Shown here in pieces: positions 17,210 to 29,610 of a DNA stretch of 37,000 bases (position 1 is its first letter; each line of letters starts with the position of its first letter). Made by a program: the position numbers and the translations under genes. The stretch comes from Saprospiraceae bacterium (lineage in GTDB: Bacteria > Bacteroidota > Bacteroidia > Chitinophagales > Saprospiraceae), in NCBI GenBank assembly GCA_026989035.1, contig JALSKB010000210.1, forward strand, positions 1 to 37,000, read 5' to 3'. A model generated the notes under the pieces. That model did not search any database. It saw nothing but the letters and a program-made list of their open reading frames with translations, and had not been told where the DNA came from.

Positions 17210-18826
17210 TCATTCCACGCGAAGGTATTCAAAAGATGCGCGCTTGGGAAACAAACAGGCGATTTTCTTTCCTTCTGCTATGATGTAATATTCCACGTTC
17301 GACTGATAGGGCATTTCGATACCCCAAATTCCGTCCTCGGCCATTTCATCACTGTGTCCGCTATCGTCGAACATTTCTACACGTTTAAACGTATGGCCCG
17401 GGCCTTTTGTTCGATAAGCCAGCCAAACGCGTTGGGCGCCTGAAGCTTTGGCTTGAAACACCAGTTCATTCTCAAAGCGCAGGGCTTCGACTTTCTCGAT
17501 TTGGGGTGCTTCGCCCTGAAAGACGGGATGTTTGCTCAGGTAAGCCTGCCGAGCTTCCATGAGTTGTCCTATACCGATGATTTTGGATTTGCCGGCCAGG
17601 GTGAGCTGATCATAACTGTTTTGAAAAGCCTCGTAAGAATAGAGTTTGTGGGGGTCTTTTTGCACTTCCTCATCGATGCGCTTGTACCAGCTTCTGGCTT
17701 GCTCTTCCAGCTTTCCACTGAGGATTTGCTCTTCCAGCATGGTTTTCAGATGAGCCAGATAAATTTTTCGATAGAGGTTATTGCGCAGCAACTTGGTGAT
17801 GAGGGGGCGTTTTTCGTTTTGTTGTTTGTAGTGTAAAAAGGGGCTGAGTTGCTGCATTTGCTCATCGCTAAGCCCCTTGCCCAAACCCGCATAGCGAAAT
17901 CCACCGAAGGAGAGGTTCATGTCCCAGACGATGGGCGTAAAGCGTCCGTCGGGCAGGCGGTACAGGTAATAGTTGTGACAAAGCCTACCGGTATAGCTGT
18001 CGAGGTTGACCAAGAGATTGTTGAAAGCCAACATCCACAGGGCCGCATCCACATCCAGCACTTCTTCTATGCGTTGCGGTTCTCTATTGAGCAGGTAACA
18101 CAATTCGATGAGTTTTTCCCAATCGTTTTTGCGATGGGATTTGCGCTCGTAGTAGGTGCTATAGCAAGCAGGTTCATCGCCGATGTACTGCAAAGAAGCC
18201 TTATCGCTCTCGGGGCAGCCCTCTTTTTGTTTGGCATGCCACTCCGGGTCGCACTTGAAGAAAGCGTTGTTGTGATCGTCAAAATAACGCTCCAAAAAAT
18301 CTTCATTGACGGATTCGGTATTGGTGTACAAGCCCAGGTATTCTCCATTGACGTAGAGCTTGGCCAAATTGGCCCGTGAAGCGGGCATATATTGTCGAGC
18401 AATTTCGTAAGAGAGCACCTCTCTGATGAAGCTGGGGTCGCGAAAACCGTTCGACAGTTTAATGGTCTCAAAACCGCCCGGAAAGCGTTGGCCATCTATA
18501 TAAGCATCGGCCTTCAGGTTGAAGGGTAGCTTTCTGTGGTGGTATTTGCGCACATTGAAATAACTGCTGTTGCCTTTATAGCGCACGCCTACTTGTTCAA
18601 AGCGCTTACCATCAATGGTAACCCCTGCAGGGATGCGCTCCTTTTGTCCTGCTCTCTTGAGCGAATCCAAGATGTAATCCCAATCCGAACGATCAAAATC
18701 GATGCGAATTTCTACGATGTGCTCAGGGTCGTACAAGGAATTTTGCTGAGCAAACAGCCCGCTCTCATACAGGCCTTGTACGAGTACAAACAAAGCTACT
18801 AAAAGAAACGAAAGGAAAGGCCTCAT
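17210..18826 (-). CDS. CotH kinase family protein (copy 1)
   Basis: This 538-aa protein has a signal peptide (MRPFLSFLLVALFVLVQGLYESGLFAQ). The ATG at 18826 is taken because it starts that peptide. The body matches CotH-type atypical protein kinases: HIVEIRIDFDRSDWDYILDSL at the start, then VGVRYKGNSSY, PFNLKADAY, KLSNGFRDPSFIREVLSYEI, LYVNGEYLGLY and the catalytic region DSYTGRLCHNYYLYR followed by FTPIVWDMNLSFGG (D302, N304). In spores CotH phosphorylates coat proteins; in Bacteroidota such proteins are secreted and their substrates are unknown. A C-terminal beta-sandwich (about 430-538) follows. It starts 5 nt after the end of copy 2, so they form an operon. The 17-20.5 kb CotH block contains no copy of the iterated hairpin. 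Confidence 0.87.
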   Translation of the reverse strand: MRPFLSFLLVALFVLVQGLYESGLFAQQNSLYDPEHIVEIRIDFDRSDWDYILDSLKRAGQKERIPAGVTIDGKRFEQVGVRYKGNSSYFNVRKYHHRKLPFNLKADAYIDGQRFPGGFETIKLSNGFRDPSFIREVLSYEIARQYMPASRANLAKLYVNGEYLGLYTNTESVNEDFLERYFDDHNNAFFKCDPEWHAKQKEGCPESDKASLQYIGDEPACYSTYYERKSHRKNDWEKLIELCYLLNREPQRIEEVLDVDAALWMLAFNNLLVNLDSYTGRLCHNYYLYRLPDGRFTPIVWDMNLSFGGFRYAGLGKGLSDEQMQQLSPFLHYKQQNEKRPLITKLLRNNLYRKIYLAHLKTMLEEQILSGKLEEQARSWYKRIDEEVQKDPHKLYSYEAFQNSYDQLTLAGKSKIIGIGQLMEARQAYLSKHPVFQGEAPQIEKVEALRFENELVFQAKASGAQRVWLAYRTKGPGHTFKRVEMFDDSGHSDEMAEDGIWGIEMPYQSNVEYYIIAEGKKIACLFPKRASFEYLRVE

Positions 18827-18831
18827 GAATG

Positions 18832-20454
18832 TCAATGGTTCAATTCTTCCAAGGTAGTGTGATAGCGCTCCCACATATAATTGGCCGGAGCATAGCTGAT
18901 CATCTCCTGCCCTTCTGCTACCAGATAATACTCGAACCTGCTCTCTCCGCTTTGAGGAGCTATGGTCGCTCCGTAAATGCCGTCTTCGGCTTCTCCGTCA
19001 TTGTTGTGACCATCATCGCGCATTCTGACAGAGCGGAAGGGTTGATCTTCCGAGAAGCGGTACATCAAATAAACTCGTTTGGGCAAGCGATCCACCTTAG
19101 CCTGAACCTGAAAGACTTCGACCCGTGTACTGGAGTATTTGGGGCGCCCCAAGACTTTAACTTCCCGAATTTCCGGAGGATAAACAATCAGGAGTTTGTG
19201 TTTTTTCAAAAAGTCGGCCCGTTTTTCCAAGAGTTGCACCAAGCCCGGAATGCGGCTGTGCTGTCCTATAGTCTCGGTCAGGCTGCGGTTAAATTGTTCA
19301 AAGGTGTAGTACTTGTTGGGGTCACTGATGAACGCCGTTTGGATAAGCTTTTGCAAAGCTTCCGCCCGTTGCTTGTACTTACCCGATACCAAGTGATCGT
19401 AGAGAATTCTGCGCAAATGGGAAAGATACATTTTGCGATACTTAGGCTCTTGCAAAAGGGTTGAGATGAGCGGTTTTAGGATATTATCTTCGTGCAGCAT
19501 CGGGTCCAATTCCTGCAGCTGTTTCAACTTGAGGTCGGAGCCAACACCCGTGTTTTTAAAAGATCCGAAGGCGAAATTCAGATCGCCTAGGATGGGCGTA
19601 AACTGCCCTGAAGGCAACTGATACAAGTGGTAGTTGTCGCTGAATTTTCCGGTATAACTGTACAAATTGACCAGTACGTTGTTAAAGGCCAACATCCAGA
19701 GGGTGTTGTCCACATCCAAAACCTGTTCGATTTTTCCGGGTTCTTCCTTGAGGATGCGGGTCAACCTTTGCAAATCATCCCAGCCGGCTCTGGCTTTCAA
19801 ATCAAAGCGATACATGTTGCACTCCGGATTGGGATCGTATTGGAGCGAACCGCCTATGCCCTGCAGACAACCCTTAGGCTCCCTTTCGTAGTAATCATGC
19901 GGACGTGCGCTAAAGAAAGCACCATCGGATGAGCCGTAATTTCGGTTCAAGAAGCCTTCGTCCAAAGGCTCCAGATTGACCATCAAGCCGTAAAGCCCGC
20001 CGTTGATAGAGACTTGGGCGTAGTTGGCTTTAGGTGCCGGCATGTATTGACGGGCAATCTCAAAGCCCAAAACTTCTCTGACCATGCTGGGATCGCGCAA
20101 GGCATCAGAGAGAACAATGTGGCTGTGCCCCTCAATGTTTTGATTTTTGTTGATGTAATCCAGCTTGATGTACAAGCCATTGCGCTTGGATTCCGGCTTA
20201 AAAGCCTTTGATTTGCGAAAGCGAACCCCCACGTATTCATACACTTGACCATTGACTTCCAAATCGGCCAACAGCATGCCATCGCCGTTGAGCCGCAGCG
20301 AATCCAACAGATATTGCCAATTGTCTTGGGCAAAGCGGATGTTGACTTCCTGAATGGAATCTATGGCGTAAAAGCCCGTATTCGAATTGTCTTGTGCCGT
20401 TAAAGCCGAAAAAGCGACCGAACAAACGGTGAACAACAGTATAATTTTTCTCAT
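18832..20454 (-). CDS. CotH kinase family protein (copy 2)
   Basis: This 540-aa paralog of the following gene shares the same layout: a signal peptide (KIILLFTVCSVAFSALTAQ), IQEVNIRFAQDNWQYLLDSL, VGVRFRKSKAF, LSDALRDPSMVREVLGFEIARQYMP, and the core YSYTGKFSDNYHLYQL with FTPILGDLNFAFGSF. Where copy 1 has VWDMN, copy 2 has LGDLN, so the Trp before the putative metal-binding Asp is lost, while the Asp and Asn remain. Activity may have changed. The ATG at 20454 is preferred over a TTG two codons upstream. The two copies are clearly diverged and probably arose by an old tandem duplication. Their shared C-terminal sandwich ends in FEYYLVAEG or VEYYIIAEG. Confidence 0.85.
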   Translation of the reverse strand: MRKIILLFTVCSVAFSALTAQDNSNTGFYAIDSIQEVNIRFAQDNWQYLLDSLRLNGDGMLLADLEVNGQVYEYVGVRFRKSKAFKPESKRNGLYIKLDYINKNQNIEGHSHIVLSDALRDPSMVREVLGFEIARQYMPAPKANYAQVSINGGLYGLMVNLEPLDEGFLNRNYGSSDGAFFSARPHDYYEREPKGCLQGIGGSLQYDPNPECNMYRFDLKARAGWDDLQRLTRILKEEPGKIEQVLDVDNTLWMLAFNNVLVNLYSYTGKFSDNYHLYQLPSGQFTPILGDLNFAFGSFKNTGVGSDLKLKQLQELDPMLHEDNILKPLISTLLQEPKYRKMYLSHLRRILYDHLVSGKYKQRAEALQKLIQTAFISDPNKYYTFEQFNRSLTETIGQHSRIPGLVQLLEKRADFLKKHKLLIVYPPEIREVKVLGRPKYSSTRVEVFQVQAKVDRLPKRVYLMYRFSEDQPFRSVRMRDDGHNNDGEAEDGIYGATIAPQSGESRFEYYLVAEGQEMISYAPANYMWERYHTTLEELNH

Positions 20455-20603
20455 ATCCAAAGCTGAGGTGTGAATGAATCAAAAAAGACACGCAATATTA
20501 AGAAATAAAAGCCGATTGCAGCACTTCGGATAGCGCTCTTTGCAGCTCATTTTACATTTGTTTTGAAACCCTGCCAAGTAAGCCTTCAGCTATATGCCGG
20601 CGG

Positions 20604-20834: not shown

Positions 20835-21341
20835 TTAGCTGTTTGGTGAGGTGCCTACTTCTTCAAAGTAGCCGGTTTTCGTGTTCTTGCGGACATTGTC
20901 CCAATTGAAATAACGCCCGTTCATCGCGACATATACGCCGGGCGGAAGAATTTGAACAAAGGCCAGGGCACTCCCCAAATTAAAAAACCCGTCGGAAGAA
21001 GTGCCAAAGGCATACGGCACCATAGCCCCCGTAAGCACAATGGTCTTGTCGGGAATGCCCTTTTGGGCTAAAAATCTGGCGGTATCGACCATTCTGTCCG
21101 TGCCGTGAGTGATGATGATTTGCTTGCGTTCCGAACGCAGGCAACTGTGCGCAATGATTTCTCTATCGGCATCCGTCATATCCAAACTGTCCACCAACAT
21201 GAGGGTGCGCACATCTACGGGCAAAGTACAACGCCCCCGCTCCAACATTTTAGGGACGTGGGTTTCCTGAAAAAAAAGCCCTCCTGAAATGTAGTTGTAC
21301 TCTTTATCAAAAGTACCGCCGGTAACGAAAATTTGGATCAT
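20835..21341 (-). CDS. Single-domain asparaginase-like protein
   Basis: A 168-aa protein corresponding to only the N-terminal catalytic domain of type I/II L-asparaginases (usually about 330 aa). It has the first-Thr motif FVTGGTFDKEY (T10), the second motif IITHGTDRMVDTA (T81-D82) and the Lys region DKTIVLTGAMVP (K99) followed by SSDGFFNLGSALA. So the catalytic Thr, Asp and Lys set is present, while the C-terminal domain, which completes the active site across the dimer, is missing. The start and stop are clean and it is followed by a co-directional gene, so this looks like a stable short family and not a truncation. Hydrolysis of asparagine is not assured. Confidence 0.8.
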   Translation of the reverse strand: MIQIFVTGGTFDKEYNYISGGLFFQETHVPKMLERGRCTLPVDVRTLMLVDSLDMTDADREIIAHSCLRSERKQIIITHGTDRMVDTARFLAQKGIPDKTIVLTGAMVPYAFGTSSDGFFNLGSALAFVQILPPGVYVAMNGRYFNWDNVRKNTKTGYFEEVGTSPNS

Positions 21342-21590: not shown

Positions 21591-22616
21591 TCAATCAAAG
21601 AGTTGATCGTAATTTTCGGAAGAACTGCCTTTTTGCTTTTCGGGTTGAGCTGTAGGGCTGTTTAAATCCAACTGATCGTCTGAGCTCGTGTTCTCTCCCA
21701 ACAACAGCAAGGTGCTCTTTTGCTCCCACTCTTCCAACATTTTCATGCCCTGCTCTTCAAAGACGCCGTTTTGCAAGTCGATGCTTTCCATGACATTGGA
21801 GGACAATTCCATGAAGCGCTCCATCTCGCCTATTTTGTTGGCCACATCATCGGCGATGTGTTCCAAAGCGGCATCAAACATGGCCCGTTTATCGGGGTCG
21901 CCCGAAAGCACACTGCGGGCTGAACGCATAGCTGAATGAGATGCCCGGATAGCTTTCCGTTCCTGCTCTTTGAGCTTGACCTGATCTTGCGTATCGGCCA
22001 AAAGAATTTCAGAGTTTTTGTACATCTTATCCAAAATCCGGTACAAGACCTCCATCTTTTTGTACAAAACGGCATAGCGCTCGTTGGTTTCTTTCAGTCG
22101 GGCGGCCTTGCGGGTATTGAGGATGACGTGCTCGTCTTTTCCCTGCTTTTTGGCCATGCTGGCCAATTGCATGCTCTTTTCTATTTCTTTTTGGTTTTCC
22201 TGCATTAGGGTTTTCATCTTTCGCATCTGCCCTCGAATAACGCCAATCTGTTTGCTCATTTTGCGCAGATTGTCTTGGAGGCTCTCTACATAGCTTTTGA
22301 GGATACCTATGGGGTCTATCTGCACAAACAGACCGGTAATCCAGCGCATTACACTCTTATAGCCATACCAAATGAGATTGCGCATGCGCGGATCAATCAC
22401 CACGTACACCAGCGCTGCCAGAATAACCAACAGCACACCCAGATAGAGGGTGTTTTCAACCAGACCGATGATTGCCGGAAGAAATTTGTACAGCAAATAT
22501 CCACCCCCACCTATCAAGGCCGTCAGAAAAATCGCTCCTGTAACGCCTTCGGGCCTCTGCCAAAAAGATTTGGGCTTGCTCACGCCCGTGTTTTCAAAAG
22601 GGTTAGTCGTTGCCAT
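21591..22616 (-). CDS. Membrane-anchored coiled-coil protein of unknown function
   Basis: A 341-aa protein. Two transmembrane helices lie near the N-terminus (GAIFLTALIGGGGYLLYKFL and LYLGVLLVILAALVYVVI). A long charged helical region (about residues 105-310) follows, rich in Lys, Glu, Met and Gln with heptad-like spacing, and then a disordered Ser/Gln-rich tail ending in NYDQLFD. It resembles PspA-type or telA-neighbour coiled-coil proteins only in general character, and I assign no function. It begins 13 nt after another coiled-coil gene, with which it forms an operon. Confidence 0.7.
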   Translation of the reverse strand: MATTNPFENTGVSKPKSFWQRPEGVTGAIFLTALIGGGGYLLYKFLPAIIGLVENTLYLGVLLVILAALVYVVIDPRMRNLIWYGYKSVMRWITGLFVQIDPIGILKSYVESLQDNLRKMSKQIGVIRGQMRKMKTLMQENQKEIEKSMQLASMAKKQGKDEHVILNTRKAARLKETNERYAVLYKKMEVLYRILDKMYKNSEILLADTQDQVKLKEQERKAIRASHSAMRSARSVLSGDPDKRAMFDAALEHIADDVANKIGEMERFMELSSNVMESIDLQNGVFEEQGMKMLEEWEQKSTLLLLGENTSSDDQLDLNSPTAQPEKQKGSSSENYDQLFD

Positions 22617-22629
22617 AGAAATACGTTTT

Positions 22630-23193
22630 TTAGAGCACTTGTTCCATCTGTTTCAAATCGGCGGCGATGCGCTGTTTCAAAACATCACAAGCCTGAATAA
22701 AATTTTGCTCGGCTTTCACAATCTTATCGCTGGTCTTGTCCACTTGATTGGTCAGCGTTTGCAAGGTTTCGCGTTTGTTTGCAAGTTCTTGTTTTTTTGC
22801 AACCAAGGTTTCTTCCAGTTTGCGGATAGTGTTTTCCACTTCTGCAACTTCCCGTTGCAAGCGTTCTTCCTCAGCCTTCCGGGCAGCCACTTTCTCCTTC
22901 AATTTCTTCTGCGCTGCGGCTTGCAACTTGGCCTTTTCTTTGTCCAATATCTGCAGATAATGGCGGGCGGTTTTCAACAGTTTTTCTTTGTCCAAACCCA
23001 TGGTAGATGCCGTAGCAAAAGCCGATTGAAAAGCCGTGGGAACATCCATATTCATCTGCACTTGGAGGGAATGAACGGCAGCCTTGAACTCCAGGTAATC
23101 AAAGCCCGGCAAGTTGTTTTGCGCTAAAGCGGAAAAGAGCATGTTCAAAGATTTCTCGTCTAATCCACTTAAATCTCCAAAGTATTCTCGCAT
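22630..23193 (-). CDS. Soluble coiled-coil protein of unknown function
   Basis: A 187-aa protein. Residues 1-80 form a helical head (MREYFGDLSGLDEKSLNMLFSAL, then FDYLEFKAAVHSLQ). Residues 80-187 are a continuous predicted coiled coil (KEKAKLQAAAQKKLKEKVAA and onward). The ATG at 23193 is chosen over an upstream start at 23292 because a full promoter lies between them. It is first in the operon with the membrane coiled-coil protein, and the two probably assemble together. No family recognised. Confidence 0.72.
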   Translation of the reverse strand: MREYFGDLSGLDEKSLNMLFSALAQNNLPGFDYLEFKAAVHSLQVQMNMDVPTAFQSAFATASTMGLDKEKLLKTARHYLQILDKEKAKLQAAAQKKLKEKVAARKAEEERLQREVAEVENTIRKLEETLVAKKQELANKRETLQTLTNQVDKTSDKIVKAEQNFIQACDVLKQRIAADLKQMEQVL

Positions 23194-23236
23194 GATGGCT
23201 TCGATTAAAAAAGTTCCGGCTTTCCAAAGATTTGCA

Positions 23237-23264
23237 CAAAGATAGCATTTCCCCCCAAAAGCAA
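23237..23264 (-). promoter_or_regulatory. Predicted promoter of the coiled-coil operon
   Basis: On the minus strand a TTG at 23264-23262 is followed by a 17-nt spacer and TATCTTTG at 23244-23237, matching the Bacteroidota -33/-7 arrangement. The start codon is 43 nt downstream of the -7 box. This is one of the best promoter matches in the window. Confidence 0.6.
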
Positions 23265-23324
23265 AAACGCAAAAGGGACAATATGTACCCAAGCCACTTC
23301 GCCATGAATATAGTAGCGCTCTAC

Positions 23325-26300
23325 CTAGGAACGCACTTCCAGGGTACTGATGCCGCCACCCAATTTCTTCAAGACCACTTGAACGGGTATGCGTTCCTGC
23401 ATAGCTCGCACATGTGAGATGAGACCTATGGTTTTTCCCCGACCTTGCAACTGCTCGAGCGTGGATAACGCCTGATCCAGGGTGTTGGCATCCAAACTGC
23501 CAAATCCTTCGTCGATAAAGAGCGAGCGAATACGGGCCCGCTGCCCCACCATATCAGACAAGCCCAAAGCCAAAGCCAGGCTGGCCAAAAAACTTTCGCC
23601 GCCGGAAAGCGTAAAAACCGAACGGCGGTGATTGGCCAGGTGGGTATCCACGATATCCAGTTCCAAATCCGTGCTATCCACTTTGACCTCCAGAAAATAC
23701 CGCGGATTGAGCTGCTGCAAATGCCTGTTAGCTAAAACGACCAAACGGCGCAGGGTCAGGCTCTGAGCAAAAGTGCGAAATTTCTTGCCGTCAGCGGAAC
23801 CGATGAGGTCATTTAGCCGCTTCCAACGGGTAAACGTCTTTTCTTTTTCTTCCTTTTGCCTAAGTAAAGCTTCTTGCCTTTCACTCAGGGCATCCCACTG
23901 TTTTTCCTGCTCCAACAAACGCCCCTTCTGCTCCAGTGTTTCCTCCTGCCTTTTGCGGCAAGCTTCTAAAGCCAGCTGCAGTTTTTCTTCCTCCAGCTCT
24001 TTGGTCTGCAGCCGGAGTTCTTCCAAGGCTGTAGTCAGGCGTTGGCCATGCTCGTGAAGGCGAATGCCCTCCTCCTCCAAGGCAGCAAGGCGATGAGTCA
24101 AGGCAGAAAATTCGCCTTCGGACAACAAGGCTGCCTGCAATGCCTCGACCTCTGCAAAGCCCCGTTGATGAGCCGCTGCCTGCAGTTGGTCGCGCTGTCG
24201 TGCCAGGGCCAGCTCCCGATGCTCTCGGTTTTTGCGCGTTTCTGCAAGCTGCTTTTCCAGACTGCCCTGCCTGGCCTTCAAGGCTGCCAAGTCTTCTCTA
24301 AACTTTGCGAGCCGATCGCGTGCCCTGCCGACTTCCTCTGCCCGCTTTCTGCGGGCTGCTTCTACGCTTTGTGCCCCGAACAAGGCCCTGCGTTCTGCTT
24401 CTCGCTTTTTCAAATCCGCTTCCAAGCGATGCAAGTCTTGCTCTTGTTCTCTGACTTGCTCTGCTTTAGCTTGCAGGTTTTTTTGCCCATGCGTGCTATC
24501 GATTTCCAACTGCTCTATTTGTCGGGAAAGTTGCTCCAAATCCTTTCGCTTTTGCTGGAAAGCCGGAAGTTGTTCGAGCAATTTTTGTAGCCTCTCCTCC
24601 AAGCCGGAATCTTTTAAAAAATTTGGCGGAAGCCAAGCCCTCAAATCCTCTTCCAGGGCCTGCAATTCTTCCTGCAGCAAGGCCATTTTCTCTTCGGCCT
24701 GTTGCAACGCCCAGGAAGCTCGTGCGTGCTTTTCCTCCAAAGGGCTGTGTTGCCAGCGGAGTTCTTGTAGTTCTTCCCGTTCGGTCTTCCACACAGCCCA
24801 CCGAGCCACTGCTCGCCTTCGTTTTTCGTACCAAGGCTCAAGCTCTGCCCCCCTGGCCTCGCGCTCTCCAGCCAAAAGGCGATCATCCAGTTCTTTGAGC
24901 CACAGCCAGGGATCGTGTACAAAACCGGCACCAAATTCTACTGCCAACTCCCGTTCTCGCTCTTTCAATGCCTGCTCTCTTTGACTTGTTTCACGGCCCA
25001 AATCAGCCAAGGCTTCCCCCAGGCTTGCCAACTCCTCTTGGTACTTAGCTCTGTCCGTTCCTGCCTTTTGACAGGCAGATTTCAACTTCAAGTATTCTTT
25101 CTGCTTATGCGCTATAAGTTCTTCTTTATCAATGAGTTGCACCAACTCGCTATGCTTAGAAAAGAAATTGTTGAGCGCTACAGCTTGGCGATTGAGTTCC
25201 CGAAGTTGGGTCTGTAGGTACATCAAGCTTCGCTCAGCTTCTTCTTTTTCCCGGAGGGCAATGTCAAAGAGCTTTTGCAACTGCTGGAATTGCTCTTTGC
25301 CAACTTGAATTTGAGCATCCAGTTTTTCCGCTTTGGCGAAGAGGCTTTCGTAGCGTTCCTCATCGTTCAGCAAGTTTTCTAGTTTTTTCTCGGCCTCTTG
25401 TAAGGCTGTTTTCTTCGCGACAAACAGTTCTTCAGTTTCTTCCATTTCCCCAAGGAGCTTTTGCTCCTGTTGCCGCACTTCCTGCAAGCCTTGAATCAGG
25501 GTTTGCAAGGCATTCAGCTTCCGTTGCAGAGGCAAGGCGCGTTCATGGGCCTGCAAACGCTTTTGCTCAGGGGCAAAAGCGCGTTTTTCTTCTTCCAATT
25601 TTTTGCATCGCGCATGCCAGCGTTCCTGCTCTTGCTCCAGGCTGTGGAGTTGAACAAAACGGTTTTTGTGTTTTTCCAGGGTTTCCCGTTCCTCATGCAG
25701 CTGAGCAAGTCGCTCATTCAGTTGGAGCATTTGGTCGCGCAAAGCCTGGCGCTCTGCCTCGGAAGGCAACTGAAGTTTTTCGATTTCTTTTCGCACTTGG
25801 TCCAAATCTCCGGCCTCCAGCGTATAGCGTTCATAACAGTTTTTGGAGATTTCGGAATAGATTTTCGTTCCGGTGATTTGCTCCAATAAGGCACTGCGCT
25901 CGTTTTTCTTAGCCTTGAGGAAAGCCGCAAAGCCCCCTTGAGCCAGGAGGACGGAGCGAGTAAAACGGTCAAAATCCAATCCGGTGAGTTCCTCTACCTG
26001 GAGGTCCATTTCTCGGATTTTCTCTGTCAGGGCCAAAGTTTTGCCCTCCGCAGTGAGCTGAAAGAGCTTGCGCGCAGCCGGCTGGAGTCTTCCCTCCGGT
26101 TTGTTGCGGGCACGACGACGCTCATAACGAGCCAGGTAGATGTTTTCACCGACTTCAAATTCCACCTCAGCCCAGCAGAAGCCGGTACCCTGAGTCATGA
26201 CTTCATCGATTTTACTTCCGCTTTCGTAGCGGTGAATGCGCCCGTAGAGAGCCAGGGTTATGGCATCCAGCAGGGTACTTTTTCCCGAGCCGGTATCGCC

Positions 26301-26408
26301 TGTGATGGCAAACAGCCCGGTGTCCGACAAAGGCGGCCGGCCAAAATCCAGCTTGAATTCTCCCCTCAGTGCATGCAAATTGCAGAAAGTCAGCTTGCGA
26401 ATCCTCAT
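23325..26408 (-). CDS. sbcC: Exonuclease SbcCD subunit C (Rad50-like ATPase)
   Basis: This 1027-aa SMC/Rad50-type ATPase acts with SbcD to open and trim hairpin and blocked DNA ends. The Walker A motif is at 37-44 (GDTGSGKS). A long two-armed coiled coil occupies about residues 180-880. The ABC signature FTLSGGESFLASLALALGL and Walker B LFIDEGFGSLD are near the C-terminus. The ATG at 26408 overlaps the TGA of sbcD, which fixes the start. The Cys-X-X-Cys zinc hook normally found at the middle of the coil (often CPxC) is not present: the central segment has a lone KSACQKAG cysteine and a region around HDPWLWLKELDD instead. A one-mismatch sister-form hairpin with a GGAA loop lies at 24622-24634. 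Confidence 0.95.
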   Translation of the reverse strand: MRIRKLTFCNLHALRGEFKLDFGRPPLSDTGLFAITGDTGSGKSTLLDAITLALYGRIHRYESGSKIDEVMTQGTGFCWAEVEFEVGENIYLARYERRRARNKPEGRLQPAARKLFQLTAEGKTLALTEKIREMDLQVEELTGLDFDRFTRSVLLAQGGFAAFLKAKKNERSALLEQITGTKIYSEISKNCYERYTLEAGDLDQVRKEIEKLQLPSEAERQALRDQMLQLNERLAQLHEERETLEKHKNRFVQLHSLEQEQERWHARCKKLEEEKRAFAPEQKRLQAHERALPLQRKLNALQTLIQGLQEVRQQEQKLLGEMEETEELFVAKKTALQEAEKKLENLLNDEERYESLFAKAEKLDAQIQVGKEQFQQLQKLFDIALREKEEAERSLMYLQTQLRELNRQAVALNNFFSKHSELVQLIDKEELIAHKQKEYLKLKSACQKAGTDRAKYQEELASLGEALADLGRETSQREQALKERERELAVEFGAGFVHDPWLWLKELDDRLLAGEREARGAELEPWYEKRRRAVARWAVWKTEREELQELRWQHSPLEEKHARASWALQQAEEKMALLQEELQALEEDLRAWLPPNFLKDSGLEERLQKLLEQLPAFQQKRKDLEQLSRQIEQLEIDSTHGQKNLQAKAEQVREQEQDLHRLEADLKKREAERRALFGAQSVEAARRKRAEEVGRARDRLAKFREDLAALKARQGSLEKQLAETRKNREHRELALARQRDQLQAAAHQRGFAEVEALQAALLSEGEFSALTHRLAALEEEGIRLHEHGQRLTTALEELRLQTKELEEEKLQLALEACRKRQEETLEQKGRLLEQEKQWDALSERQEALLRQKEEKEKTFTRWKRLNDLIGSADGKKFRTFAQSLTLRRLVVLANRHLQQLNPRYFLEVKVDSTDLELDIVDTHLANHRRSVFTLSGGESFLASLALALGLSDMVGQRARIRSLFIDEGFGSLDANTLDQALSTLEQLQGRGKTIGLISHVRAMQERIPVQVVLKKLGGGISTLEVRS

Positions 26409-27631
26409 AGCTCTTCCCCTTTTTGCTGCATCCATTCCAACAACTCCTCAAAGGTCTGGCGGAGTTTTTCGATTTCGCCTTTCGGCAAATGCTCTTGTCT
26501 GCAACGCTCTTCAAAAACCTCCTCCGGCCTCAACTGCTCCAAAGATTTTTGCGGTTTATCTGCCGTCCAATCCGACTTTTGCGTTTGTTCCAGGCGCAAA
26601 CTGAGCACATCCATCTCGAGTCGTTGAGCCGCTTCTTGCAAACGCAAGCGCAACGCCGGTTCCATGTAATCAGCCTGCAAAACCAGTTCGAGCCAGGGTC
26701 TGAGCCGGTCGCTTTCATGGCGTTTGGCGAAAGCCTCCATTTTTTCGAGCAAAATAGCAGGGCTTCCTCCTCTAAGCGTTTTTAAACGACGGAAAACGGG
26801 TAGTCTAAAGCGCTTGCTCTCTAACAAGTGGCCTCCTTTCCAAAAAGTGAGGGTAACCGACTTTTCATCAATGGTTTCGCGAAAGCTCAGCGGAATGATC
26901 GAACCGCTGTACTGCACGCGGGAATTCCCCTCTACGGCCTGTGCCCTGTGCAAATGCCCCAGGGCCACGTATTGAAAGATGTCGGGAAAATCCGAAACGG
27001 CTATGTTTTTTTCATCGCCGAGATAGATGTTTTGCTGACGCCGGGGATCGGCCACCTGACTACCTCGCGCATACAGATGCCCCATCGCTATGATGGGCAA
27101 ATTGTGCTCCGCGTACAGCTCTGCCCTTTGACCTAAGTGTTGATAATGTTCTTTGATGCGCTGGCGCAAACGCATGATGCGTTCTTCAGGAGATTCGGCA
27201 GCCAGGCCGGCACCCAAATCTCGATCGCGCAAAAAAGGTACGGCGGCGACCACAGCCTCCGCTCGTCCTTGTCTGTCTTGTAAGACGAGAAGTTCATCCT
27301 CTCCGCTGCGCACCCTCACGTGTACATTCAAAGCTTGCAAGAGGCGCCGAGGGGCTTCGAGATGAGCCGGTGAATCGTGGTTTCCCGCCGTGATAACTAC
27401 ATGACGACAGGAGGTTCGACTCAACTCGGCCAGAAAGCGGTAGTACTGCTCTTCAGCATAGGAAGGCGGACTGCCCAGGTCAAAGACATCTCCAGATACC
27501 AACAGCACATCAACTTTTTCGTTCTCAACGAGATCGAGCAGCCAATCCAGGGCCAACCGATGCTCCTCTTTGCGATCAAAATGGGAGAACTTCTGTCCCA
27601 GATGCCAATCGGAAGTGTGGAGTATTTTCAA
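26405..27631 (-). CDS. sbcD: Exonuclease SbcCD subunit D (Mre11-like nuclease)
   Basis: A 408-aa metallophosphoesterase nuclease. The metal-binding motifs appear in order: TSDWHLG (residues 7-13), VSGDVFD, ITAGNHDSP, MGHLYARG and ALGHLHRAQ. A capping domain and C-terminal helices that bind SbcC follow. The start codon is TTG at 27631: the protein must begin MKILHTSDWHLG, there is no in-frame ATG or GTG between it and the upstream in-frame TGA, and the leader contains a CCC-TTTC-GGG hairpin. It overlaps sbcC by four nucleotides (ATGA). It carries one main-form 13-mer (26477, LPKG) and one sister-form copy (26723, AFAK) 246 nt apart. Confidence 0.96.
   Translation of the reverse strand: MKILHTSDWHLGQKFSHFDRKEEHRLALDWLLDLVENEKVDVLLVSGDVFDLGSPPSYAEEQYYRFLAELSRTSCRHVVITAGNHDSPAHLEAPRRLLQALNVHVRVRSGEDELLVLQDRQGRAEAVVAAVPFLRDRDLGAGLAAESPEERIMRLRQRIKEHYQHLGQRAELYAEHNLPIIAMGHLYARGSQVADPRRQQNIYLGDEKNIAVSDFPDIFQYVALGHLHRAQAVEGNSRVQYSGSIIPLSFRETIDEKSVTLTFWKGGHLLESKRFRLPVFRRLKTLRGGSPAILLEKMEAFAKRHESDRLRPWLELVLQADYMEPALRLRLQEAAQRLEMDVLSLRLEQTQKSDWTADKPQKSLEQLRPEEVFEERCRQEHLPKGEIEKLRQTFEELLEWMQQKGEEL
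26477..26489 (-). repeat. Iterated hairpin, copy 8 (in sbcD)
   Basis: Exact 13-mer, read as LPKG. Confidence 0.85.
26723..26735 (+). repeat. Sister-form hairpin, copy D (in sbcD)
   Basis: Exact sister-form 13-mer, read as AFAK. Confidence 0.8.
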
Positions 27632-27891: not shown

Positions 27892-29610
27892 ATGAGTAAT
27901 CCGATTTTAAACAGTGAACTGCTGGCTCGCAGAGCTAAGGTCGATGAGTTGATCAAGCAATTGCACGCCTTCAGCACGGCCATTGGCCATGAAGAACTGA
28001 GCGCTACCATCAATGAGTTGCGCAACCGGCTTCACGAGCCGTTTATGTTTGTGGTTGTCGGTGAAGTCAAGGCGGGAAAAAGCAGTTTTATCAATGCTCT
28101 GCTCGATACGGGAAGGGAAATCACGAAGGTGGCACCTCAACCCATGACCGATAAGGTCTTGCAGATTCTCTATGGCGAGGAAGAGAAAATCGTAAAGGTC
28201 AATCCCTTTTTGGAAAAGATTTTTTTACCCGTTGATGTACTCCGAGAAATTGCCATTGTGGACACTCCCGGAACCAACACCATCATCGAGCAACACCAGG
28301 AAATTACAGAGCGCTTTGTACCGGCTGCAGACCTCATTGTCTTCGTCTTTGAAGCTAAAAATCCCTATCGGCAATCGGCCTGGGATTTCCTGGATTTCAT
28401 TCAGCAGGAGTGGCGCAAAAAAATCATCTTTGTCCTTCAGCAAAAGGATTTGATTTCTCCGGAAGACTTGGAAGTCAATGTAAAGGGTGTCCAGGAACAA
28501 GCCCGCAAAAAAGGCATAGAAAAGCCCCTGGTCTTTGCCGTTTCGGCCAAAGAAGAGCTGGAAGGTCATACGGATCGCAGCGGTTTTGAAGCCCTGCGCA
28601 GCTATATCCGCGAAAACATCACCGGGGGCAAGGCCGCTTACCTCAAGTTGGAAAACAGCCTGAACATCGCCTCCAACCTGGCCGAACGCTTGCAAAAAGC
28701 GCTGAAAGCTCGTCGCGAACAGTATGAGGCAGACAAAAGCTTCCGACAAGAAGTGCGCGAAATCCTCGATCGACAAACCGAACAGGCCGAACGCCAGGCC
28801 GGACGTCTGATTGAAAATGCTGCGGCTACCTATCGCGAAATCACGAGAGCCAAAGAGCGCCAACTCAGCAAGGAACTCTCCTTCTTTGCCTTGCTGCGGC
28901 GCAGTCTGACAGGGCTTTTTTCCAAACAAGCAGGGCTCAAAGAACAGCTGGACAAACTCGCCCGCGACATGGCACTGGAATTGGAAAACGGCTTACAACG
29001 CAAATTGCAGGAAGGCATCAATGACCTGGCCTTGAGCATCCAACAGATGGCCCAGCTCATCGATCTCAAACTGCAGCACAGCAGCACACCGCTCAGCCAG
29101 GACATGGACGTCTTTCGCGACATTAACGAACAGCGAAACCACGTGCTAAGCGATTTGCAAATAGCCTTTCGGCAAATGCTGGAACAGGGGGAAACTTTCA
29201 AGGCCTCTGAGCTTTTCCCCGAAAAAAAAGACCTCTCCCCTTCAGTGCTTACCGGCAGCGGCATAGCGCTCATCGGGGCCATACTCACCGCTGTTACCAA
29301 CGGCGCCGTTTTCGACATCACAGGTGGAGTGCTCACCGGTTTGGGACTGCTCTTCGCCGGGGTTTCCTCCTCAGCCCAAAAGCGCAAATTGCTGAAGGGC
29401 TATCGCGCAGAGGTCCAACGAGGATTGGAAAAACTGCAAAAAAAATTGCACGAACAGCTCTTTTCCTATATCCATGCCGTACGGCATCAAATCGAAAGCA
29501 GCTTCAGTCGCTTTGATGCCCTGCTGGAAACCGAGGGCAAAGCTCTCAAAGAACTGGAAGAAGCTTTTGCCAACATTCAACACCATTTGCTCCAAAAGCC
29601 GGACAAGTAA
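27892..29610 (+). CDS. Bacterial dynamin-like GTPase
   Basis: A 572-aa large GTPase of the dynamin superfamily. The G1/P-loop is GEVKAGKSSF (from residue 57) and G2 is the Thr in QPMTDKV. G3 is DTPGTN (D124), and G4 is the unusual LQQKD (K185-D186) instead of N/TKxD. A long helical stalk follows (about 240-450), then a hydrophobic hairpin near 453-497 (GIALIGAILTAVTNGAVFDI, GGVLTGLGLLFAGVSS) that should insert in the membrane, and a C-terminal coiled coil. Bacterial dynamin-like proteins remodel or stabilise membranes, some under phage or antibiotic stress. Here a single copy is present, not the usual tandem pair. The start overlaps the end of a tiny out-of-frame peptide (27875-27895). An iterated 13-mer at 29164 encodes AFRQ. 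Confidence 0.88.
   Translation: MSNPILNSELLARRAKVDELIKQLHAFSTAIGHEELSATINELRNRLHEPFMFVVVGEVKAGKSSFINALLDTGREITKVAPQPMTDKVLQILYGEEEKIVKVNPFLEKIFLPVDVLREIAIVDTPGTNTIIEQHQEITERFVPAADLIVFVFEAKNPYRQSAWDFLDFIQQEWRKKIIFVLQQKDLISPEDLEVNVKGVQEQARKKGIEKPLVFAVSAKEELEGHTDRSGFEALRSYIRENITGGKAAYLKLENSLNIASNLAERLQKALKARREQYEADKSFRQEVREILDRQTEQAERQAGRLIENAAATYREITRAKERQLSKELSFFALLRRSLTGLFSKQAGLKEQLDKLARDMALELENGLQRKLQEGINDLALSIQQMAQLIDLKLQHSSTPLSQDMDVFRDINEQRNHVLSDLQIAFRQMLEQGETFKASELFPEKKDLSPSVLTGSGIALIGAILTAVTNGAVFDITGGVLTGLGLLFAGVSSSAQKRKLLKGYRAEVQRGLEKLQKKLHEQLFSYIHAVRHQIESSFSRFDALLETEGKALKELEEAFANIQHHLLQKPDK
29164..29176 (-). repeat. Iterated hairpin, copy 9 (in dynamin-like gene)
   Basis: Exact 13-mer, read as AFRQ. 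Confidence 0.85.

Follow-up and report, generated by a model that had tools for sequence, protein, structure and literature searches.

The sbcCD locus and its ATPase head

The window, i.e. the whole stretch of DNA that was analysed, comprises 37,000 nucleotides of a Saprospiraceae genome (G000) and carries sbcC directly behind sbcD on the reverse strand. The genes of this region, together with the head motifs, the arms and one cysteine of SbcC, are located as follows.

17210-20460, (-) strand: tandem pair of CotH kinase-family genes (PF08757) with a slight overlap
20835-21341, (-) strand: gene of a 168-aa protein whose match to asparaginases is confined to their N-terminal domain (PF00710)
21591-23292, (-) strand: two coiled-coil-rich-looking genes, next downstream of sbcC, with no Pfam family over the cut-off
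23325..26408, (-) strand: sbcC (rad50 orthologue), 1027 aa, without CxxC
23505..23525, (-) strand: Walker B region SLFIDEG, residues 962-968 (translation, both species; Pfam SbcC_Walker_B)
23592..23609, (-) strand: ABC signature LSGGES, residues 934-939 (translation; common to both species)
23802..24776, (-) strand: coiled coil of the C-arm (residues 545-869), which aligns collinearly with the long relatives, median offset +193
25071..25073, (-) strand: Cys446 (KSACQKAG), not conserved; Gly in the second species, G001
25113..25865, (-) strand: proximal coiled coil of the N-arm (residues 182-432), which aligns collinearly with the long hook-bearing relatives over the span that single alignments cover
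26274..26300, (-) strand: Walker A GDTGSGKST, residues 37-45 (translation; invariant in both species)
26405..27631, (-) strand: sbcD (mre11 orthologue), the upstream gene, overlapping the sbcC start by 4 bp
27892-29610, (+) strand: dynamin-like GTPase (Pfam Dynamin_N), divergent, adjoining sbcD

The sbcC frame runs from an ATG at 26408 to a stop at 23325 with zero internal stops, and its product is recognized by the Pfam models AAA_23 (75.5) and SbcC_Walker_B (43.3), both above the gathering score of 27. The translation further contains a Q-loop (LLAQG, Q157) and an H-loop (SHV at residues 998-1000), each common to G001, such that all motifs of a split ABC ATPase head of the SbcC/Rad50 type (Walker A, Q-loop, signature, Walker B and H-loop) are present. 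Between the head halves AlphaFold2 predicts a long antiparallel coiled coil, with helices within residues 182-869. The open reading frame, the Pfam matches and the translated motifs agree with the earlier note on this DNA, which had described a 1027-aa SbcC at 23325-26408 with intact ATPase motifs. The upstream gene product matches Pfam Metallophos and SbcD_C above cut-off, as well as the NCBIfam models TIGR00619 sbcd (215.7 bits, above cut-off) and PRK10966 (328.9 bits, under the cut-off of 450).

The best NCBIfam model for the sbcC product is PRK10246 (SbcC), which aligns over residues 1-1024 with 429.7 bits, below its cut-off of 750. TIGR00618 (sbcc) scores 334.1 bits, below the curated cut-off of 478.5; as this value is reached by none of 150 family genomes, the cut-off cannot separate the present SbcC from hook-bearing kin. 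The own genome gives one match on searching with the SbcC protein, the TIGR00618 model finds a second, weaker match there (location unlisted), and several SMC_N proteins are listed for G000 and G001. E. coli SbcC (PDB 6s6v, 7yzp) is the best PDB match by sequence (338.7 bits) and the best fold match of the full-length model (E 6e-27), and resembles the present protein in its heads, motif order, SbcD partner and length (1048 aa). The two differ near mid-protein, where E. coli SbcC exhibits CPLCGSTSHP, whereas the present SbcC exhibits a WLWLK tip and no CxxC. By descent and context the protein is SbcC, and as the CxxC family feature is absent, it is filed as a hook-less SbcC variant and not as a standard zinc-hook SbcC.

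As to the surroundings, ORFs with a start closely similar to that of the dynamin-like gene occupy the same place in the other two genomes of the genus (L124 and L130, reverse strand). The 1.4 kb after sbcC in G001 holds an ORF on the opposite strand that matches nothing in the window and that we take to be Fic-like on account of an HPFxxGNGR motif.

Distribution of the zinc hook

A search of the whole protein finds no C..C pattern anywhere in the 1027 residues, which extends the earlier report of a missing CxxC in the middle region. The cysteines of SbcC are found at positions 9, 78, 191, 268, 446 and 817, and the isolated one noted before within KSACQKAG is C446, replaced by Gly in G001. The genus is represented by three genomes, G000 itself, G001 and G002. 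The sbcC of G001 is complete, encodes a protein 45% identical to the present one and is likewise without C..C, and the sbcC of G002 stops at a contig end after ∼306 residues, before the apex.

Outside this pair the hook is retained throughout the proteins examined. CxxC is found in 71 of 73 distinct full-length SbcCs (72 family members plus L005 from the order), where it is positioned at 0.49-0.54 of the protein length; the exceptions are the present SbcC and that of G001. CxxC is likewise observed in 10/10 additional proteins of the family or order whose apex is readable and which were partial or had been missed by the motif filter (L017, L021, L024, L028, L030, L078, L079, L093, L109 and L112), and in all five relatives outside the genus that came from a pattern search (a Bacteroidetes MAG whose L125 is the same gene as L017, Desulfopila, a Desulfuromonadales MAG, Desulfosediminicola and Salinibius). 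A phylum search of 109 genomes, 102 of them with a match, adds 36 SbcC-like proteins from other genomes, all with CxxC, a count that covers the stronger matches. At E<=0.001 the family search matched 146 of 150 genomes, with many weak, SMC-like matches and some moderately strong ones that lie outside the counts. Matches were obtained in 162 plasmid and 1164 phage records, and all nine of those assessed, which were picked from the top matches, have CxxC (the gene in L193 is split over two ORFs). The apex-less fragments L004, L006, L018, L038 and L080 are excluded from every count. No relatives were found in viral_contigs, or in genome_contigs with a single-protein query. Hook loss is not Bacteroidota-wide, and among the proteins examined it is confined to this genus; the lineage-wide loss in Bacteroidota that had been put forward for checking is contradicted by the 71/73 full-length relatives and the 36/36 phylum proteins with a hook.

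A profile built from 74 hook segments gave no alignment to the apex of the present protein (best domain 3.0 bits, off the apex), whereas 8/8 left-out hook proteins scored 46.7-123.3 bits at the hook with similarly built profiles, and an eroded hook was dismissed on the strength of this control. A MAFFT alignment sets AGFVHDPWLW under CGAxxHPFLH, a placement that is treated as unproven. Among hook-bearing Saprospiraceae SbcCs, L103 and L118 are altered in the sequence after the second Cys (CPLCHQTVGH and CAVCGNESIR, as opposed to the usual CPLCGSxxHP). Four short, unverified 'Bacteriophage sp.' records (L192-L195) with hook-bearing SbcC genes may be bacterial DNA.

The Saprospiraceae SbcCs with CPLCxSxxHP are collinear with the present protein in the heads and proximal arms, and identity to the listed relatives, nearly all of them long forms, is 35-62% in the aligned parts. 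Leaving the pair aside, every examined Saprospiraceae SbcC with a readable apex keeps the hook, and the long ones possess ∼193 more residues around it. These long relatives (n=33, 1202-1231 aa, with CxxC at 594-608) align collinearly with the N-arm (median offset -2, to residue 432 in the longest alignment) and with the C-arm (median offset +193, from residue 545 in the longest alignment). The long form minus ∼193 residues around the hook thus equals the present length. The short hook-bearing relatives (n=14, 1004-1027 aa) are themselves about equal in length to the present SbcC, so that a tip-only swap from a short ancestor is also possible.

Quick trees placed the genus among or beside the long hook-bearing forms. 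An AU test did not reject the genus together with the short forms (p-AU 0.81), and it showed that the quick search had missed a better tree. A careful tree of 37 rows from a thinned set placed the genus in a clade of long and intermediate forms (support 88/94), with the genus pair at 100/100 and the Saprospiraceae rows separated from two gammaproteobacterial rows at 100/99. In view of the AU test the claim is limited to the genus sitting, as far as the trees place it, among hook-bearing Saprospiraceae, and no claim is made that its ancestor was long. An N-terminal SbcC fragment from another genus (L006 of G029) groups nearest to the genus (SH-aLRT 94) and may be its nearest outside relative. 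As the L006 contig ends just before the apex, the hook loss could predate the genus; no C-terminal SbcC part was found in the G029 genome.

The replacement apex and its predicted shape

Three features define the region that stands in place of the hook.

24738..24986, (-) strand: replacement apex, residues 475-557, 59% identical between the species, with no shared Cys or His
24861..24911, (-) strand: predicted tip helix, residues 500-516 (PWLWLKELDDRLLAGER), the proposed clasp (both AlphaFold2 runs)
24915..24929, (-) strand: short predicted helix, residues 494-498, after a break at 493 (FGAxFV; AlphaFold2 block pLDDT 94, full-length 79)

The comparison between the present SbcC and that of G001 gives identities of 68.4% and 76.9% in the heads, 25.4% in the N-arm and 27.3% in the C-arm, and 59.0% in residues 475-557, with 76% in an apex core (488-512) whose consensus, FGAxFVxDxWLWLKxLDDRLL, lies at the predicted hairpin tip. 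Two complete sequences underlie these values; one belongs to a metagenome-assembled genome and the other to a draft of 215 contigs. The best-conserved 38- and 77-residue windows of the arms both begin at 475, and 0 of 5000 identity shuffles matched either window, the window lengths having been picked after the alignment had been seen. The 16-residue windows at 492, 496 and 497 contain 8 conserved bulky hydrophobics of 16, the maximum over 650 such windows. Tryptophans common to both species within 191-854 are found at 501, 503, 537, 540, 566 and 838, and the conserved surface runs ∼40 residues down the C-arm (W537, W540, EREELxELR). As the apex is 59% identical against 25-27% along the arms, the hook appears from these two sequences to be replaced, not merely eroded.

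In the two-species alignment no Cys or His within residues 289-639 is common to both proteins. Zinc at the apex is thus unlikely, and alternative zinc ligands at the tip were dismissed on the same count. A 101-residue tip query found matches in two of 398 family genomes, G000 and G001. The two-sequence apex profile, run against 395 phylum genomes, returned the own genome and one weak match (E 0.008), which was taken as chance, the long ORF at that site opening with repeats that we read as propeller-like and being no SbcC.

Two AlphaFold2 runs were made, one with residues 400-640 and the G001 sequence (two sequences; mean pLDDT 88.9) and one at full length with seven sequences (pLDDT 80.6, pTM 0.40). 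The first gives helices at 420-492, 494-498, 500-516 and 520-592, and the full-length model gives the same tip boundaries (492, 494-498, 500-516, 520-592), with block pLDDT of 79, 83, 65 and 75 from residue 491 to 530 (65 at 511-520). With two or seven sequences, such confident helices may be obtained for any coiled coil. Helix breaks of the N- and C-arm in the full-length model pair around residue 509-514 (427/597, 349/679 and 214/805), which places the hairpin tip on the WLWLK helix; for the breaks at 419, 749-753 and 761-763 no partner is evident. The segment HDPWLWLKELDD, through which the earlier note had suggested that the arms join, lies at this predicted tip, about halfway along the coiled coil and within the sole strongly conserved island of the arms. 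The segment is thus the apex, and that the arms are joined there is the part of the suggestion that we infer. With the apex fragment as query, Foldseek gave nothing at E<=0.001 and its listed entries were mostly generic coiled coils, so that no known dimerisation fold supports a clasp. A globular SMC hinge was likewise not indicated at the apex, where short helices are predicted and the Pfam scan found no hinge family; the present protein is accordingly not a hinge SMC.

How the arms may be joined

The reading we favour, at roughly even chances, is that the tip is a metal-free hydrophobic clasp through which the arms would dimerise. The N-arm helix would end at 492, helices 494-498 and 500-516 (WLWLKxLDDRLL) would cap the hairpin and the C-arm helix would start from 520. 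The hydrophobic surface so formed would consist of F492, F496, V497, W501, L502, W503, L504, L507, L511 and L512, with W537 and W540 below; part of it would pack within the hairpin, and the remainder would pair with the corresponding tip of another SbcC. Both arms would be joined without zinc, as by an SMC hinge, and ATP-driven head engagement and cleavage by SbcD would proceed as in other SbcCD. A metal-free dimeriser is preferred because the conserved island is large and hydrophobic, and because a metal-free hinge can replace the hook in yeast Rad50. The accessible passages of PMC6969161 report that fission-yeast Rad50 with the MukB hinge in place of the hook works in DNA repair, which indicates that a metal-free dimeriser can suffice. 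They also cite an earlier swap with the Thermotoga SMC hinge in budding yeast that met little success, and B. subtilis SMC with a Rad50 hook for its hinge, which supports normal growth if the arm length is proper.

The conserved hydrophobics could serve as a hairpin cap alone, and neither a tip that stays unjoined nor one with a different binding target is as likely as a clasp. The former would imply that SbcD and the ATP-bound heads hold the dimer by themselves and that tip closure is dispensable in the genus, a somewhat unlikely reading. It is in keeping with the fact that any hairpin needs some cap, with the joint absence of hook and distal arm relative to the long kin, and with the clasp dimer itself being deduced rather than observed; a review (PMC4494100, in its accessible part) moreover argues that the CxxC tip of Rad50 is no stable dimeriser and that Mre11 holds the dimer. 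Against this, several conserved Trp and an island of 80 residues, more than twice as identical as the arms, are hardly what a mere cap would require, and the hook is kept in relatives whose arms differ greatly in length. Opinions still differ on whether the hook dimerises stably (for, PMC6969161; against, PMC4494100, as far as their accessible text goes). It is improbable, though not negligibly so, that the apex is instead a binding site for a partner protein, DNA or membrane and not for another SbcC tip. The extent of the conserved surface, ∼40 residues down the C-arm, is perhaps beyond the needs of a clasp, contact with DNA has been proposed for an archaeal hook apex (review PMC10418313, accessible part), and the dynamin-like GTPase gene lies divergent beside sbcD, with ORFs of similar start there in the other two genomes; this neighbour is however tied to SbcC by position only, and gene content downstream of sbcC is not conserved in G001.

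Two further accounts carry very little weight. A lineage that dropped the hook to save zinc might be recognized by its ribosomal protein L36, which has a single Cys in 3/3 genomes of the genus, but the same is seen in 10/10 relatives outside it, i.e. in all 13 genomes of the phylum looked at (L197-L199, L208-L217), so that the single-Cys L36, which presumably lacks the usual zinc site, does not set the genus apart; zinc sparing is accordingly highly improbable. Least credible of all is removal of the hook by an assembly error, frameshift or chimera. One of the assemblies is a draft of 215 contigs, yet the same apex recurs in an independent assembly at 45% protein identity, the frame is open without stops and the arms are collinear with relatives on both sides. 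The assembly error that the earlier note had named as its possible refutation was checked against the separate G001 assembly, which is also without CxxC, and the occurrence of the same altered tip in two independent assemblies rules out a simple error of this kind.

Under the favoured reading of a metal-free clasp, the present protein would be an SbcC (Rad50) orthologue that works with SbcD and has its metal clasp exchanged for a protein-only tip, a description to which we give about equal weight for and against. CxxC has been described as an invariable motif of Rad50 (PMC1533848, accessible text), and the chance is a little short of even that a natural Rad50/SbcC lineage has swapped this supposedly invariable hook for a newly evolved, metal-free aromatic clasp. 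Such a swap could, with nearly balanced likelihood, be nature's version of the engineered Rad50-MukB-hinge, achieved via hook loss and arm-tip replacement. In both cases a metal-free module would take the place of the zinc hook; the MukB-hinge Rad50 is engineered and carries a folded hinge domain, whereas the present tip is natural and consists of a few short predicted helices (PMC6969161, accessible passages). A literature search, with most subscription journals outside its reach, brought to notice no published SbcC/Rad50 that is naturally without a hook in the text accessible to it. The nearest case is a hinge-less SMC of ocean Actinobacteria (PMC12153180), an SMC-superfamily protein described in the accessible part of that paper as being without the usual apex dimeriser and without CXXC; its authors place it with SMC and not SbcC, whereas the present gene is an sbcC beside sbcD.

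The hook-less SbcC may thus be regarded as a natural experiment on arm joining. If its tip dimerises without metal, the hook would be only one solution to the joining of the arms, and if it does not, arm joining would be dispensable in at least one lineage.
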